Source of the DNA: Rhodobacter sp. SGA-6-6
Lineage (GTDB): Bacteria > Pseudomonadota > Alphaproteobacteria > Rhodobacterales > Rhodobacteraceae
Assembly (NCBI RefSeq): GCF_011043545.1
Contig: NZ_JAAKGP010000003.1
Coordinates: forward strand, 310,001-374,000
Direction: 5' to 3'
DNA: 64,000 nucleotides
The position numbers and the translations under genes were made by a program. Below the pieces are notes generated by a model. The model did not search any database, was not told the DNA's origin, and worked only from the letters and a program-made list of their open reading frames with translations. Positions 50,077-57,401 of this stretch are shown here, in pieces. Numbering within the stretch: position 1 is the stretch's first letter; every line of letters begins with the position of its first letter.

Positions 50077-50102
50077 GGAACCGATCCGGCCGCCGTCGCG
50101 TT
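50077..50102 (+). promoter_or_regulatory. EcfG-type promoter for the periplasmic protein at 50151
   Basis: GGAAC-N17-CGTT on the plus strand ends 48 bp upstream of the ATG at 50151. It is back-to-back with the csbD promoter, 23 bp away. Confidence 0.75.
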
Positions 50103-50688: not shown

Positions 50689-50892
50689 GCTTTTCCCCTC
50701 GGCCCTAACGTCAAGGGGAAAATTCGGCTCGACCGCTCAGCGGGACCGTTGACCTGCGGCCCGGCTTTGCGGAATGTGGGCGCGGTCTCAGCCTGCTTCG
50801 CAAGAAAGGTCGCACGGAAATCCCATGGCCGGCTTTCCCGCTCCTGCGTCACGCCGGCCTGCCTGCGGGCGGACCCTGCCCGGAGGCGGGAG

Positions 50893-52602
50893 GTGAGGCG
50901 TCTTCTCGGCCGGCTCATGCCTTGGGCTGCGCTGGCGGGCGCGCTGCTGATGGGGCTGGCGATGACCTTCGCCGTGCATCTGGCCGAAACCCGGCGGGCC
51001 ACGGCGGAATTCGCCCGCACCGCCGATCTGGCGGTGGACCTGATCACCACCCGGCTGCACCAGCATGTCGTGGTGCTGCGCGCGGCCAAGGGCCTGTTCG
51101 CGGCGCAGGACGGTCTGGTCGCCCGCAACGAATTCCTGCGCTTCATCGTCGAGGTGGGAATCGCCAGCGACCTGAGCGGCGTCCGCGGCGTCGGCTTCGC
51201 GCCGCTGGTTCCCGCGGCGCAGACGGCGGGGCCCGAGGCCGAGCTTCTGGCCCATTACCGCCAGCAGATCCCGGTCCGTCCCGCCACCGACCAGCCCTGG
51301 CGCGCGCCCATCGTGCTGCTGGAGCCGGCGGACGAGCGCAACCTGGCCGCGCTCGGCTACGACATGTATTCCGATCCGGTCCGCCGCGCCGCAATGCTGC
51401 GCGCCATCGCCAGCGACGAGCCCGAGATGAGCGGCCCCGCCGTTCTGGTGCAGGAGATCGACGGCGAGAAGCAGATGGGCTTCCTGATCTACCTCGCCTA
51501 TGGCGGCCGGCCGGACCTGCTGGAGGCGGCGGACACCGCCGGCGGGCCGCCGGCGGAGGGCTTCGTCTACGCCCCCTTCCGCGGCGCCGACCTGATCCGC
51601 GCCGCGCTGGCCGAGGCGCCCGACCTGCCGGTGGCGCTGGAGATCGTCGACAAGGCGGCGCCCGAGCGGCCGCTCTACCGCGGCGACATCCCGGCGGAGG
51701 GCACGGCGCTGCGGCAGGTGCGCGAGGTGGAGGTGATGGGGCGCAGCTGGCGGATCGACGTCTGGCAGACCGGCGGCCGGGCCTGGCACCGGCATCTCGG
51801 CACCCTGCTGGTCGGGCTGATCTCGGTCTTCTTCGCCGCCGCGACCGGCCTTGCCGTCGCCGCCCGCCGGCACGAGGAGGCGCAGGCGCGCGAGGTGATG
51901 GCCGCCGCCGCGCGCGAGGCTGAATACCGCGGGCTGCTGCTGCAGGAGATGAAGCACCGGATCAAGAACCACATCGCCCGCATCCAGTCCATCGCCCGGC
52001 AGAGCGCGCGCGGGGCGGAGGATGTCGCCACCTTCACCGCGGCCTTCGACGCCCGGTTGCAGGCGATGGCGGCGGTGCAGGAAATCCTGGCCGGCACCGC
52101 CATGGCGCAGGCGGGCCTGCGCGAGATCCTGCGCAAGGAGCTGCAGCAATGCCTCGACACCGAGGAGGTGGAGCATCTGCTCGACGGCCCGCCGGTTATC
52201 CTGGACGAAAGGCAGGCCCACGCCCTGGCGCTGGTGGCGCATGAACTGGTGACCAATGCGATGAAATACGGCGGCCTGTCCGAGGGCGGCGGCGGCCTGA
52301 GGGTCGGCTGGCGGATCGAGGAGAGCAGCCCGCCCGAGGTGGTGATCGACTGGGTGGAACGGTTCGAGACCGCAGAGGCGACGCCGGCGGCGGGCAAGGG
52401 CTTCGGCTCGCGCCTGATCGAGGCCAGCCTGAAGGGCGAATTGTCCGGGACCATAGAGCGCAGCTTCACCGGGGAGGGGCTACGGATCACTCTGCGCTTC
52501 CCGCTGAACCCGGCGATGAAGCCGAAGGACGAAGGGGCAGGGTCCCGGGAAAGGCGCCGGCGGCGGGGGATGATGGTCAGAGACGGAGAAACGGCGGGGT
52601 GA
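50893..52602 (+). CDS. CHASE-domain HWE-type sensor histidine kinase
   Basis: A 569-residue membrane sensor. One helix (about residues 8-28) leads to a periplasmic CHASE domain (about 60-270, with FAAQDGLVARNEFLRF, GVGFAPLVPA and GYDMYSDPVRRAAM), a second helix (about 300-323), then an HWE/HisKA_2 kinase: phospho-acceptor in QEMKHRIKNHIARIQS, N-box HELVTNAMKYGGL, WVERF and a G-box GKGFGSRLIEASLKG. All ATP-binding motifs look intact. Start GTG 50893 has GGAGG 6 bases upstream; ATG 50917 is an alternative. HWE kinases commonly phosphorylate PhyR, encoded 0.4 kb away. Confidence 0.85.
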   Translation: MRRLLGRLMPWAALAGALLMGLAMTFAVHLAETRRATAEFARTADLAVDLITTRLHQHVVVLRAAKGLFAAQDGLVARNEFLRFIVEVGIASDLSGVRGVGFAPLVPAAQTAGPEAELLAHYRQQIPVRPATDQPWRAPIVLLEPADERNLAALGYDMYSDPVRRAAMLRAIASDEPEMSGPAVLVQEIDGEKQMGFLIYLAYGGRPDLLEAADTAGGPPAEGFVYAPFRGADLIRAALAEAPDLPVALEIVDKAAPERPLYRGDIPAEGTALRQVREVEVMGRSWRIDVWQTGGRAWHRHLGTLLVGLISVFFAAATGLAVAARRHEEAQAREVMAAAAREAEYRGLLLQEMKHRIKNHIARIQSIARQSARGAEDVATFTAAFDARLQAMAAVQEILAGTAMAQAGLREILRKELQQCLDTEEVEHLLDGPPVILDERQAHALALVAHELVTNAMKYGGLSEGGGGLRVGWRIEESSPPEVVIDWVERFETAEATPAAGKGFGSRLIEASLKGELSGTIERSFTGEGLRITLRFPLNPAMKPKDEGAGSRERRRRRGMMVRDGETAG

Positions 52603-52644
52603 ACGCCGGCTCCATCGGGGCCCCCGAGGGTTCCATCGCCCTCT

Positions 52645-52860
52645 GCCTTGGCGAAGGCGTGTGCCTTCGCCACAGCGCAACGGTTCAACCGGACCGGCCA
52701 GGCCCTCACGGCCCGGCCAGCGCCCGCCCCGCCCTTTGGCCAGGCGCTTCTCGCCCGCCGGGTCGGGTGCTGGCCTCTCCCGGTCTAGGGCTGCCAGCGT
52801 CTCCGGCTGACGTGCCGCGCACGGGCGGGGCGAGGCAATGCCTCGCCTGTTCCCGCCCGC
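52645..52860 (+). repeat. 216-bp multi-palindrome repeat, copy C
   Basis: Same order of hairpins as copy A: GGCGAAGGCGTGTGCCTTCG, CGGCCAGGCCC...GGCCCGGCCAGCGCCCGCC, GGGTCGGGTGCTGGCC, and the terminal CGCACGGGCGGGGCGAGGCA...CCCGCCCG. It occupies most of the 417-bp gap between the kinase and phyR. Confidence 0.85.
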
Positions 52861-52875
52861 GGAAACCGAAGGAAC

Positions 52876-52897
52876 GGCGGGGTGAACCCCGCCCTAC
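52876..52897. repeat. Single arm of the GTAGGGCGGGG repeat
   Basis: GGCGGGGTGAACCCCGCCCT and AC match the right arm of the 20737-20803 repeat. It follows copy C of the 216-bp element by 15 bases. The remaining bases up to phyR show nothing recognisable. Confidence 0.6.
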
Positions 52898-53019
52898 CAT
52901 CCCTGTGCAGATCGACGGGATAACCCGCCTCCACCCGCGTGCAGCTGCCCTCCCAACGCGAGCGGGGAGGACAGGGCCGGCATGTCGTCGTCCGGGGGCA
53001 GGGCGGAGCCTGCCCCGTC

Positions 53020-53829
53020 TCACGCCACCAGCGTCTCGGTCGAGGCGAAGAACATCGCCTGGCTGACGGCGGAGCGGATCTGTTCCTCGGTATAGGGCTT
53101 GTTGATCAGGAAGGCCGGCTCGGGCCGCTCGCCGGTCAGCAGCCGTTCTGGGAAGGCGGTGATGAAGATCACCGGCAGGTCGCCGAACTGCGACAGGATC
53201 TCGTTCACCGCGTCGATGCCCGAGGAATTGTCGGCCAGCTGGATGTCGGCCAGGATCAGGTCGGGCCGGTCGGCCGCGGCCAGCGCCACCGCCTCGGCAT
53301 GGGTGCGGGCATTGCCGGTGACGCGGTGGCCCATGGCCTCCACGATGTCGGCGATGTCCATGGCGATGATCGCCTCGTCCTCGATCACCAGCACCGCGCC
53401 GCGGACCGAGGCCTCCATCTCGCGCCGGGCCACGTCGACCAGATGCGCGGCCTCGTCGGCGCCGATGCCCATGATCGCGGCGATCTGGTCGTGGTCGAAG
53501 CCCTCGATGGTGTGCAGCAGCAGCGCCTCGCGCGAATTGTGGGTCAGCCCGGCCAGATGCGCCTGCGCCCGGCCCGAGATGCCGGTGTCCGGCTCGGCCA
53601 CCGGCGCGCCGGAGCTGGACCAGATGGTATGGAACACCGCGAACAGCGCCAGCCGCGTGTCGGGATGGTCCGAAACCAGCGCGGGATCGGCGACCACCGA
53701 TTCCAGCACGGCCACGGCATAGGCATCCCCGCTGGCCTGGTTCCCGGTCAGCGCGCGGGCATACCGGCGCAGATAGGGCAGGTGGCGGGCCACGCGGGAG
53801 GTCAGGTCACTGGCTTCCTGTGCGATCAT
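53020..53829 (-). CDS. phyR: PhyR, general stress response anti-anti-sigma response regulator
   Basis: A 269-residue regulator with an N-terminal ECF sigma-like domain (about residues 5-130: RHLPYLRRYARALTGNQASG, NSREALLLHTIEGFDHDQIA) and a C-terminal receiver (from about 144: GAVLVIEDEAIIAMDIADIV) whose phospho-acceptor is Asp195 in LILADIQLAD. When phosphorylated, the sigma-like domain takes NepR away from EcfG. The start at 53827-53829 is 40 bp from an exact EcfG promoter, giving positive feedback. It is divergent from nepR-ecfG. Confidence 0.96.
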   Translation of the reverse strand: MIAQEASDLTSRVARHLPYLRRYARALTGNQASGDAYAVAVLESVVADPALVSDHPDTRLALFAVFHTIWSSSGAPVAEPDTGISGRAQAHLAGLTHNSREALLLHTIEGFDHDQIAAIMGIGADEAAHLVDVARREMEASVRGAVLVIEDEAIIAMDIADIVEAMGHRVTGNARTHAEAVALAAADRPDLILADIQLADNSSGIDAVNEILSQFGDLPVIFITAFPERLLTGERPEPAFLINKPYTEEQIRSAVSQAMFFASTETLVA

Positions 53830-53861
53830 CTGGTCGGCTCCGATATTTTTCCAACTCACCG

Positions 53862-53886
53862 GGAACCGAACGCGCAGGCAGGTGTT
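53862..53886 (+). promoter_or_regulatory. EcfG-type promoter for nepR-ecfG
   Basis: GGAAC-N16-TGTT on the plus strand, one base from consensus, ends 33 bp upstream of the ATG at 53920. It overlaps the phyR promoter on the opposite strand almost completely. Confidence 0.65.
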
Positions 53887-53893
53887 TGGTTCC
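53869..53893 (-). promoter_or_regulatory. EcfG-type promoter for phyR
   Basis: GGAAC-N16-CGTT on the minus strand, an exact consensus match, ends 39 bp upstream of the phyR start codon. Confidence 0.8.
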
Positions 53894-53919
53894 AAGGAAA
53901 AATGTGGGAATATCGGGAA

Positions 53920-54096
53920 ATGGCAGGCGAGCAGGACGAGAACACTCCGCGCAGGCAGGCGATCCACGCACAGATCGACGAGAATCTCAAGCGTGTCTAT
54001 GCCCTTGCAGCGGCCGAAGAGTTGCCCGACAGGTTTAAGGACCTTCTGGCGCAACTGAAGGCGCGGGATGCGGCGATCAAGGGAGGCGACTCTTGA
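53920..54096 (+). CDS. nepR: NepR anti-sigma factor
   Basis: A 58-residue anti-sigma factor that holds EcfG inactive until phosphorylated PhyR displaces it. The core AIHAQIDENLKRVYALAAAE followed by ELPDRFKDLLAQLK has the two NepR helices and the conserved LPDRF segment. ATG 53920 (MAGEQDEN) was preferred to ATG 53902, which would lie only 15 bp from the promoter -10 element and add six atypical residues. Its stop overlaps the ecfG start by three bases. Confidence 0.92.
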   Translation: MAGEQDENTPRRQAIHAQIDENLKRVYALAAAEELPDRFKDLLAQLKARDAAIKGGDS

Positions 54097-54668
54097 CCGC
54101 CGCCGCCGTTGCCCCCGAAGACCCGCGCGACAGGCTGCCCGCGGCGATCCCGCGGCTGCGCGCCTTCGCCATCAGCCTGACGCGCGACGTGACCCATGCG
54201 GACGACCTGGTGCAAGACACTATCCTGAAGGCCTGGTCGAACATGGACAAGTTCGACCCGGGCAGCAACCTGGATGCCTGGCTCTTCACCATCCTGCGCA
54301 ACACCTTCTACTCCGGCCTGCGCAAGACCCGGCGCGAGGTGCAGGACAGCGACGGCGCCTTCGCCGCCACCCTGTCCGAGCGCCCGGCCCATGACAGCCG
54401 GCTGGCGCTGAAGGACTTCCAGCGCGCCTTCGACCAGCTTTCCCCCGAGCATCGCGAGGTGCTGATCCTGATCGGCGCCTCCGGCTTCTCCTGCGAAGAG
54501 GCGGCGGGGATGATGGGCGTCGCCGTCGGCACGGTGAAAAGCCGCGCCAGCCGCGCCCGCCGCCGCCTGACCGAGCTTCTGCATCTCGCCGATGGCGAGG
54601 ACATGTTCTCCGGCACCGACGGTGCGACACAGGCGGTCGTGCTGCGGGCATCGACGGCGGCGCGGTGA
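54093..54668 (+). CDS. ecfG: EcfG general stress response sigma factor
   Basis: A 191-residue ECF sigma factor of the ECF15 group. Region 2 spans about residues 14-80 (RLRAFAISLTRDVTHADDLV, QDTILKAWSNMDKFDPGSNL, DAWLFTILRNTFYS) and region 4 about 110-165 (LSPEHREVLILIGASGFSCE, EAAGMMGVAVGTVKSRASRA). It directs RNA polymerase to the GGAAC-N16/17-CGTT promoters seen around it. Start TTG 54093 with GGGAGG 6 bases upstream overlaps the nepR stop, and the stop overlaps the next kinase gene (ATGA-type). Confidence 0.95.
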   Translation: MTAAAVAPEDPRDRLPAAIPRLRAFAISLTRDVTHADDLVQDTILKAWSNMDKFDPGSNLDAWLFTILRNTFYSGLRKTRREVQDSDGAFAATLSERPAHDSRLALKDFQRAFDQLSPEHREVLILIGASGFSCEEAAGMMGVAVGTVKSRASRARRRLTELLHLADGEDMFSGTDGATQAVVLRASTAAR

Positions 54669-56362
54669 AGGCCCCCGGCCGCAGGCAGGGGTTCTCGGCC
54701 AGCAGCCTCGGATTCCGCCTGGGCTCCACCCTGGTGCTGGCGCTGCTGCCGCTCGGCATCCTGTCGGTGGTGCAGACCTGGGTCTCGCTGGACCAGATGG
54801 AGAAGACCACGCTGGACGGCATCGGCGGCGCCTCGCGCGAGGCGGTGCGGCCGCAGATCGACCTGATCCGCGACGCCCAGGCCGCGGCGCGCACGGTGGC
54901 GGCGATGCTGGCGCCCGGCATCACCACCGGCGCCAGTTGCAGCGCCCGGCTGGCGGCGGTGGCCGCAGCCATTCCGCAGGCCACAATCGTGGCCTATGTC
55001 CCCGCCGAGGGGCCGATCACCTGCGCCTCGGACGAGGCGAAGGCGGACCTGGCGGCCGATGCCTTCATTGCCGAACTGCCGACCCGGCCCGAGCCCTCGC
55101 TGCGCTACAACCCGCGCGGGCCGGTCACGGGCCTGCCGGTGATCGTGGTCGGCGCGCCGGTGGTGGACCGGCAGGGGGTGCAGCAGGGCGCCATCGGCAT
55201 CCTGCTGACCCATCAGGCCGTCACCCCGCGGCCGTATCAGAGCGATTACGGCCTGTGGCAGCCGGCGCTGATGGCCACCTTCACCGGCGACGGCCGGATG
55301 CTGGCGGCCGACCGGGACCCGCCGGATGTTGCCGGGCTGCTGCCGTCCGATCTTGCCACCGACCGGCTGGAGGGGCAGGTGGGCCAGCCCTTCTATCACC
55401 GCGGGGCGGAGGGCAAGCGGCAGATCGTCTCGGTCACCCGGGTCGCCGACGACCTTTACCTGCTGGCGCTGTGGCAGCACGATGCCGTGGCCGGGTGGAG
55501 CACCGGCCTCGCGCCCTTCCTCCTGCCGGCGCTGACCTGGGCCGCGGCGCTGCTGGCGGCCTCCATCGCCTCGCAGCGGCTGGTGGTGCGGCATGTGCGG
55601 GCGCTGTCGCGGTCGATGACCTCCTACATGGCCAGCCGCCGCCGCACCGCCGTCCCCGGCATCGCCGGCGCCCCGGCCGAGATCCAGAAGCTGCACGGCG
55701 TCTACGAGGAGCTGATCGACGCCATCGCCCAGGACGAGGCCGAGCTGGAGAACCTGCTGGTCGACAAGGACCGCCTTCTGCACGAGGTGCATCACCGCAG
55801 CGGCAACAGCCTGCAGATCATCGCCTCGATCATGCGGATGTATCGGCGCGAAAGCGGCGATCCGGGGATGCGCGGGGTGCTGGACGGGCTGATCAACCGG
55901 GTGATCGCGCTCTCTTCCACCCATACCAGCCTCTACGGGCTGGAGGGCCGCCACGACGTGCCGATGGACGAGGTGCTGAACGCGGTCATCCTGCGGCTGA
56001 AGGCGATCCACGGCATCGCCATCGGCTCCGCCCGCAAGCGGTTCGAGCCGATCCTGCTGCCGGCCCAGACCGCCATTCCGCTGGCGCTGGCACTGGCCGA
56101 GACGGTCAGCTGCCACTTCGCCGCGAAAGAGCGCATGGCCCGGGGCATCGAGGTCTCGCTCCTCGGCTCGGGCGAGGACATCTGCCTGAAGGTCGAGGGC
56201 CCCGACGTGCCCGAGTTCCGGCCCGAGACCACGCAGGGCCTGGCCGCGCTGCCGCGGCGGATCCTGATGCAGTTCGCCACCCAGCTGCGCGGCCGGGTGG
56301 TGACCCGGATCGAGGGCGACCGCTCGGTCGTCGAGCTGACCTTCCCGCGCACCCCGATCTGA
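54665..56362 (+). CDS. HisKA_2-type sensor kinase with degenerate ATPase domain
   Basis: A 565-residue membrane sensor: a helix at about residues 20-40, a periplasmic dCache-like domain (about 45-275), a second helix (about 281-302), a HAMP-like linker, and a HisKA_2 dimerisation helix with His376/His377 in LLHEVHHRSGNSLQ. The ATPase domain is unusual. The N-box reads LAETVSCHFA, with Cys483 where Asn normally binds Mg-ATP, and the G-boxes are reduced to EGPDVPEFRPETTQGLAAL. It may not bind ATP normally. It is translationally coupled to ecfG (overlap at 54665-54668), so it most likely controls PhyR. Confidence 0.82.
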   Translation: MKAPGRRQGFSASSLGFRLGSTLVLALLPLGILSVVQTWVSLDQMEKTTLDGIGGASREAVRPQIDLIRDAQAAARTVAAMLAPGITTGASCSARLAAVAAAIPQATIVAYVPAEGPITCASDEAKADLAADAFIAELPTRPEPSLRYNPRGPVTGLPVIVVGAPVVDRQGVQQGAIGILLTHQAVTPRPYQSDYGLWQPALMATFTGDGRMLAADRDPPDVAGLLPSDLATDRLEGQVGQPFYHRGAEGKRQIVSVTRVADDLYLLALWQHDAVAGWSTGLAPFLLPALTWAAALLAASIASQRLVVRHVRALSRSMTSYMASRRRTAVPGIAGAPAEIQKLHGVYEELIDAIAQDEAELENLLVDKDRLLHEVHHRSGNSLQIIASIMRMYRRESGDPGMRGVLDGLINRVIALSSTHTSLYGLEGRHDVPMDEVLNAVILRLKAIHGIAIGSARKRFEPILLPAQTAIPLALALAETVSCHFAAKERMARGIEVSLLGSGEDICLKVEGPDVPEFRPETTQGLAALPRRILMQFATQLRGRVVTRIEGDRSVVELTFPRTPI

Positions 56363-56395: not shown

Positions 56396-56420
56396 GGAAC
56401 CCCGGTCCCCGCCGCGGGTT
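56396..56420 (+). promoter_or_regulatory. EcfG-type promoter for the DUF1328 gene
   Basis: GGAAC-N16-GGTT, one base from consensus, ends 54 bp upstream of the ATG at 56475. Confidence 0.6.
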
Positions 56421-56474: not shown

Positions 56475-56639
56475 ATGCTTGGTTGGGCAGTCACCTTCCT
56501 GGTCATCGCCATCATCGCCGGTGTCCTGGGCTTCAGCGGCATCGCCGGCACCTCGGCGGGGATCGCGCAGATTCTGTTCTTCATTTTCCTGGTGCTCTTC
56601 GTTCTGTCCCTGATCGGCCGCGTCCTGCGGCGCGGCTGA
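56475..56639 (+). CDS. DUF1328 small membrane protein
   Basis: A 54-residue two-helix inner-membrane protein: [20 protein letters not shown], then [20 protein letters not shown] and [14 protein letters not shown]. This is the DUF1328/YtjA family, small proteins often induced by osmotic or general stress. GGAG lies 9 bases before the ATG, and a near-consensus EcfG promoter is upstream. A strong terminator follows, so it is a one-gene unit. Confidence 0.92.
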
Positions 56640-57340: not shown

Positions 57341-57365
57341 AACGCGCGCTGCGGGCAAAGGTTCC
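57341..57365 (-). promoter_or_regulatory. EcfG-type promoter for the 56824-57303 gene
   Basis: GGAAC-N16-CGTT on the minus strand, exact consensus, ends 37 bp upstream of the start codon. Confidence 0.75.
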
Positions 57366-57375
57366 CGGCCGGCAG

Positions 57376-57401
57376 GGAACCCGGCCACATCCTCCGCCGT
57401 T
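57376..57401 (+). promoter_or_regulatory. EcfG-type promoter for the AI-2E-type gene
   Basis: GGAAC-N17-CGTT on the plus strand, exact consensus, ends 49 bp upstream of the ATG at 57451. It is back-to-back with the preceding promoter, 10 bp away. Confidence 0.75.

Follow-up and report, generated by a model that had tools for sequence, protein, structure and literature searches.

A probable PhyT/PhyK-type pseudokinase beside ecfG in the general stress response locus of Rhodobacter sp. SGA-6-6

A putative PhyR phosphotransferase and brake

In a stretch of 64,000 nucleotides from Rhodobacter sp. SGA-6-6 (contig NZ_JAAKGP010000003.1; below, the window), the gene at 54665..56362 on the + strand encodes a protein of 565 aa which, judged by homology and anatomy, is probably a PhyT/PhyK-type HisKA_2 pseudokinase that serves PhyR both as phosphotransferase and as brake. 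The analysis supports the loss of the ATP-binding motifs, the retention of the phosphoacceptor histidine, a fold that is predicted to be kept, purifying selection, the position of the gene at the stress locus and the presence of the other parts of the pathway. A first-pass annotation, made from the sequence of the window, had proposed a pseudokinase or phosphatase-type partner for PhyR, fed by the intact kinase nearby, as an unusual signalling design; this interpretation turned out to be partly right and mostly already described.

According to the proposed mechanism, the ATPase domain would be a structural domain that does not bind ATP, and the protein would not autophosphorylate. His377 would take a phosphoryl group made elsewhere and pass it to PhyR, and the unphosphorylated pseudokinase would probably restrain PhyR from direct phosphorylation; both steps are modelled on published relatives. 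The phosphoryl source would be at least one intact HWE/HisKA_2 kinase, namely the adjacent CHASE-HWE kinase, a CheB-CheR-PAS-HWE kinase on contig C55 or a HisKA_2 kinase on contig C8. The transfer from kinase to pseudokinase could be direct, or could run through a FATGUY-type regulator encoded beside the C55 kinase.

Organization of the general stress response locus

The region 50749-56362 is a general stress response locus, made up of genes for a CHASE-HWE kinase, PhyR, NepR, EcfG and the pseudokinase. The CHASE-HWE histidine kinase, whose ATPase motifs are intact, occupies 50749..52602 (+), these being the limits of the open reading frame, with an uncertain true start. On the opposite strand lies phyR (53020..53829, -), encoding 269 aa that match the NCBIfam PhyR subfamily at 357 bits and whose translation contains an intact receiver with D, T and K present. 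The product of 53920..54096 (+), a 58-aa protein read from the sequence, carries the core motif of the NepR anti-sigma factors, to which we presume it belongs; its gene overlaps the start of ecfG and keeps this position in relatives (tblastn). The general stress ECF sigma factor gene itself, ecfG, spans 54093..54668 (+; NCBIfam PRK12546, 292 bits), and its stop codon is overlapped by the GTG start of the pseudokinase gene at 54665 (GTGA, as read from the frames), which ends with a stop codon at 56360-56362. A gene at the phyR-nepR-ecfG locus is one of the features of the PhyT/PhyP type.

A pattern search of the 64-kb window for EcfG-type promoters (GGAAC-N15-18-SGTT) returned 8 matches against 1.98 expected. 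One of them, GGAAC-N16-CGTT at 53869..53893 (-), is located between phyR and nepR; the further ones are at 50077-50102 (+), 56396-56420 (+), 57341-57365 (-) and 57376-57401 (+), together with three others. These matches suggest that neighbouring genes may belong to the stress regulon. A small ORF, 56475-56639, is preceded by one such match.

The ATP-binding motifs are lost while the phosphoacceptor histidine is retained

Motifs were compared across 181 aligned HisKA_2 proteins. The N-box remnant (residues 479-487, 56099..56125, +) keeps E479, and its Asn is replaced by Cys483 (56111-56113), just as the first-pass annotation had read it; the K and H/Y positions of the box are Ala486 and Ala487. 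The remnant of the G1 box (residues 512-516, 56198..56212, +) reads GPDVP instead of DxGxG, and that of the G2 box (residues 528-530, 56246..56254, +) consists of A528-L529-P530 instead of GxG. Thus, the N-box Asn, G1 and G2 found in active HWE/HisKA_2 kinases are represented here by Cys483, GPDV and ALP, and the ATPase domain is degenerate, as in the PhyT/PhyP type. The same annotation had described an eroded glycine-rich lid; since G1 and G2 are both gone, more than the lid has been lost. Pfam gave no match to a HATPase domain in this protein. In the neighbouring CHASE-HWE kinase it gave a weak HATPase_c match, and the motifs HELVTNAMKYG, WVE and GFG confirm that the ATPase domain of the neighbour had rightly been called intact. 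The N-box Glu, E479 (56099-56101), stays invariant even in the clade of eroded homologs, although nothing else of the ATP site is left there.

The dimerisation and phosphotransfer (DHp) domain, of the HisKA_2 type shared by HWE/HisKA_2 kinases, covers residues 365-446 (55757..56002, +) according to Pfam and the alignments. Pfam HisKA_2 (PF07568) matched residues 374-446 with 51.3 bits at a cut-off of 22.3, and HWE_HK matched as well. The phosphoacceptor His377 (55793-55795, +) stands in the motif HRSGNS where HRVKNN is usual. The dimerisation histidines, earlier described as kept, are indeed present (H376 and H377, and also R378 and N381), but the motif around them is not the usual one: V379-K380 is replaced by S-G and N382 by S. 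H377, R378 and N381 are invariant in both homolog alignments (18/18 and 28/28), so the protein has the HRxxN DHp with phosphoacceptor His of the PhyT/PhyP type. The changes K380>G and N382>S may alter DHp chemistry.

At the other end of the protein, the AlphaFold model contains a putative periplasmic dCache-type sensor domain at residues about 38-280 (54776..55504, +). In the model, long helices flank the dCache fold at 37-281, which aligns with the PctA dCache structure 5ltx at Z 19.3 over 230 residues (VIA-align). By this predicted topology, the protein shares the membrane anchor and periplasmic sensor domain of the PhyT/PhyP type. Two periplasmic cysteines, Cys92 (54938-54940) and Cys120 (55022-55024), are invariant in all aligned homologs (alignments A1 and A2) and perhaps form a disulfide. 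A periplasmic Cys has been reported as necessary for the function of Caulobacter PhyK.

The eroded domain keeps a predicted fold and is under purifying selection

The first-pass annotation had proposed a comparison of the predicted structure with HisKA_2 kinases. In the AlphaFold model (mean pLDDT 82), residues 370-565 fold like the kinase EL346 (4r39), with Z 17.4 over 173 residues in VIA-align; at the level of sequence, a PDB search gave weak EL346 matches only. Compared with the nearest ortholog (G006), dN/dS by the NG86 method was lowest in the DHp (0.09), intermediate in the ATPase domain (0.23) and highest in the periplasmic part (0.35); these values are rough since dS is high. Because the EL346 fold is predicted to persist, selection is purifying and the motif loss is shared by orthologs, the ATPase domain seems to be retained for structure.

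Random decay or a pseudogene was ruled out by the open frame, the loss common to orthologs and the purifying selection on the ATPase domain, and sequencing error was ruled out on the same grounds. An oddity of one strain alone was ruled out by the ortholog census.

Motif loss is graded across Rhodobacteraceae and Caulobacterales-type homologs

The pseudokinase is present in 11 of the 13 genomes of the genus. All 10 distinct full-length copies aligned from the genus lack the N-box Asn, as does the split copy of G012 (L021). On a FastTree phylogeny calculated with the ATPase-domain columns left out, the eroded proteins (n=15, from six genera) form one clade with support 99, and N-box loss takes 5 changes on this tree against 18.4 in shuffles. 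HR[ST]GNS replaces HRVKNN in every member of the clade (15/15), each of which lacks the N-box Asn; N-box and G2 were lost together with the change beside the histidine. Rhodobacteraceae homologs outside the clade (n=146) retain the N-box Asn in 143 cases, and not one has the G1 Asp, with Asn at this position in 143. All 13 Caulobacterales-type homologs have an intact N-box, G1 Asp and G2. The Pfam match to the ATPase domain weakens in parallel: it scores above the cut-off in two proteins of the Caulobacterales type, falls short of it in two from Rhodobacteraceae and is absent from three eroded proteins. Five further proteins (L309, L335, L024, L026 and L028) lost the N-box Asn separately from the eroded clade. 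Two genomes, G034 (L390, L391) and G004 (L008, L028), have two general stress loci each; an eroded protein is encoded at one, and at the other a PhyK-type protein distinct from it.

What emerges is a natural series, which runs from the intact Caulobacterales-type PhyK through the G1 Asp-to-Asn change across Rhodobacteraceae to full loss in one clade, where erosion of the ATPase domain is paired with a corresponding change next to the phosphoacceptor His. A description of the family-wide G1 change was not found in the open-licence papers searched. The series recasts a puzzle from Caulobacter, where PhyK keeps an ATPase domain that it does not use.

Partner kinases, candidate shuttles and alternative readings

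Pseudokinase and PhyR occur together in 16 of 22 genomes of the family and are both absent from the other six (G002, G011, G015, G017, G019 and G020). Each genus genome with a pseudokinase encodes at least one further HWE/HisKA_2 protein; the two PhyR-less species of the genus encode none, and therefore the whole stress system seems to have been lost there. In the extra kinases examined, those of G005, G006, G009, G010 and the window genome, the ATPase motifs are intact. The window genome has three further kinases: the CHASE-HWE kinase, the CheB-CheR-PAS-HWE kinase on C55 and the HisKA_2 kinase on C8. Since HWE/HisKA_2 proteins track the presence of PhyR and their motifs are intact, other intact kinases are supported as the phosphate source. 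The earlier suggestion of a pseudokinase partner of PhyR fed by intact kinases is therefore supported by the lost ATP motifs, the retained His377, the co-occurrence with PhyR and the additional HWE/HisKA_2 proteins.

One candidate shuttle was found in the window genome. At L392 (G000:C55:92500-98500), the CheB-CheR-PAS-HWE kinase gene is followed by two receiver genes, the first for a FATGUY regulator (PFFFITGY) and the second for another receiver protein (PFVFYSAY). The first is a single-domain protein, its motif is one residue off the SdrG/MrrA-type PFxFATG[G/Y], and its best PDB match is Sma0114 (2lpm), with SdrG (5ieb) third; the neighbouring kinase may be its only partner. A DNA pattern search of the genome for FATGUY proteins gave 31 matches against 56 in the reversed control, of which the C55 match alone was useful. 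In G005, G009 and G010, a FATGUY-profile search returned nothing above PhyR's own receiver, and in G006 the best match was a degenerate protein; nine more short receiver matches, from G000, G005, G006, G009 and G034, all lacked the FATGUY motif. Judging from these draft genomes with divergent sequences, the regulator is likely absent from G005, G009 and G010. Because three relatives seemingly have no FATGUY regulator and G006 has a degenerate one, it would be unsafe to assume an SdrG-type relay for the whole clade, and the published relay may fail to cover all of it.

A less likely reading is that the eroded clade does without an SdrG/MrrA-type shuttle, an intact HWE/HisKA_2 kinase driving PhyR directly or trans-phosphorylating His377 while the HR[ST]GNS pseudokinase gates PhyR. 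If true, this would give the alphaproteobacterial stress response a second and shorter wiring. The main rival to the phosphotransferase reading appears unlikely: the intact HWE kinases would phosphorylate PhyR directly, and the pseudokinase, tuned by its periplasmic sensor, would sequester or dephosphorylate PhyR with no relay at all. It fits the three relatives that retain PhyR and the eroded protein along with an intact HWE/HisKA_2 kinase and in which a FATGUY regulator was not found, although the donors there could be regulators of another type. The Asn of HRxxN also sits where HisKA phosphatases use a residue to help activate water. Moreover, PhyT of Sphingomonas melonis Fr1 binds unphosphorylated PhyR and holds it at the membrane (PMC5898713). 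However, conservation in the protein peaks at the DHp, at a level beyond what sequestration alone seems to require. The phosphatase idea, which the first-pass annotation shared, was once entertained for the Sphingomonas protein under the name PhyP; in vitro assays showed no PhyR phosphatase activity, and the name was changed to PhyT, for a phosphotransferase (PMC5898713), which by analogy would argue against the idea here.

A conserved pairing of the pseudokinase with the CHASE-HWE kinase, implied by the claim that the neighbour feeds it, was rejected: this kinase adjoins the locus only in the window genome and G006, and relatives of it are placed elsewhere in G008 and G010. For the same reason we regard it as very improbable that an intact HWE kinase and the pseudokinase form a mixed complex in which the ATPase domain of the former phosphorylates His377 directly. 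The adjacency in these two genomes would suit such a partnership, as would G006, whose only two HWE/HisKA_2 proteins are the adjacent HWE kinase and the eroded protein, and a passage of PMC12148442 reports trans autophosphorylation by an HWE/HisKA2 kinase; a mixed pair of this kind was not found in the literature drawn on. The idea that the protein continues to work as an ATP-using kinase, only with unusual motifs, can be practically dismissed, since, for all the invariant E479 and the retained predicted fold, it has neither the N-box Asn nor the G1 Asp nor the G2 Gly, and Caulobacter PhyK does not autophosphorylate even with intact motifs (PMC5964349).

Three results are worth keeping: the motifs were lost in grades, a change in the DHp is coupled to the loss, and some relatives apparently have no shuttle. 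Species like G006, with one intact HWE kinase and one eroded protein, offer small natural systems for the complete PhyR phosphate path.

Comparison with known systems

Loss of kinase activity followed by reuse in other signalling pathways is known from further relatives of histidine kinases, among them DivL, ChpT and Spo0B. Within the general stress response, Caulobacter PhyK lacks autophosphorylation and obtains phosphate from MrrA; its G1 and G2 mutants complement fully, while the His mutant fails (PMC5964349). The window protein matches the NCBIfam PhyK model NF051872 over positions 1-536 of 537 with 160.4 bits (E 6e-47), below the equivalog cut-off of 750, and for this reason it is a PhyK relative for which the name PhyK is unwarranted. 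It resembles Caulobacter crescentus PhyK in end-to-end homology, in the periplasmic sensor and in the HisKA_2 DHp, and PhyK function is independent of ATP binding (PMC5964349). In contrast, Caulobacterales PhyK-type proteins keep N-box, G1 and G2, all three of which are lost here.

Closer in taxonomy, a section of PMC5830050 describes the same arrangement in Rhodobacter sphaeroides, where RSP_1272 and RSP_1271 have overlapping start and stop codons. On that description, RSP_1271 is likewise a sensor histidine kinase gene following ecfG at the phyR locus. Unlike the window protein, a related protein of Cereibacter johrii (L044) still has its N-box and G2, with Asn in place of the G1 Asp.

For alphaproteobacteria the design as a whole is not the unusual one first proposed, since Sphingomonas is already known to have it and PhyK of Caulobacter functions with no need to bind ATP (PMC5898713, PMC5964349). 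In S. melonis Fr1, the phyR locus encodes PhyT, formerly PhyP, whose ATPase domain is degenerate and which transfers phosphate from SdrG to PhyR via His341 (PMC5898713). The present case differs in that SdrG is a defined donor in Sphingomonas, and in the HR[ST]GNS DHp of the eroded clade. By published description, nevertheless, PhyT and the window protein are alike in their place at the phyR locus, membrane anchor, periplasmic domain, HRxxN motif and degenerate ATPase domain.
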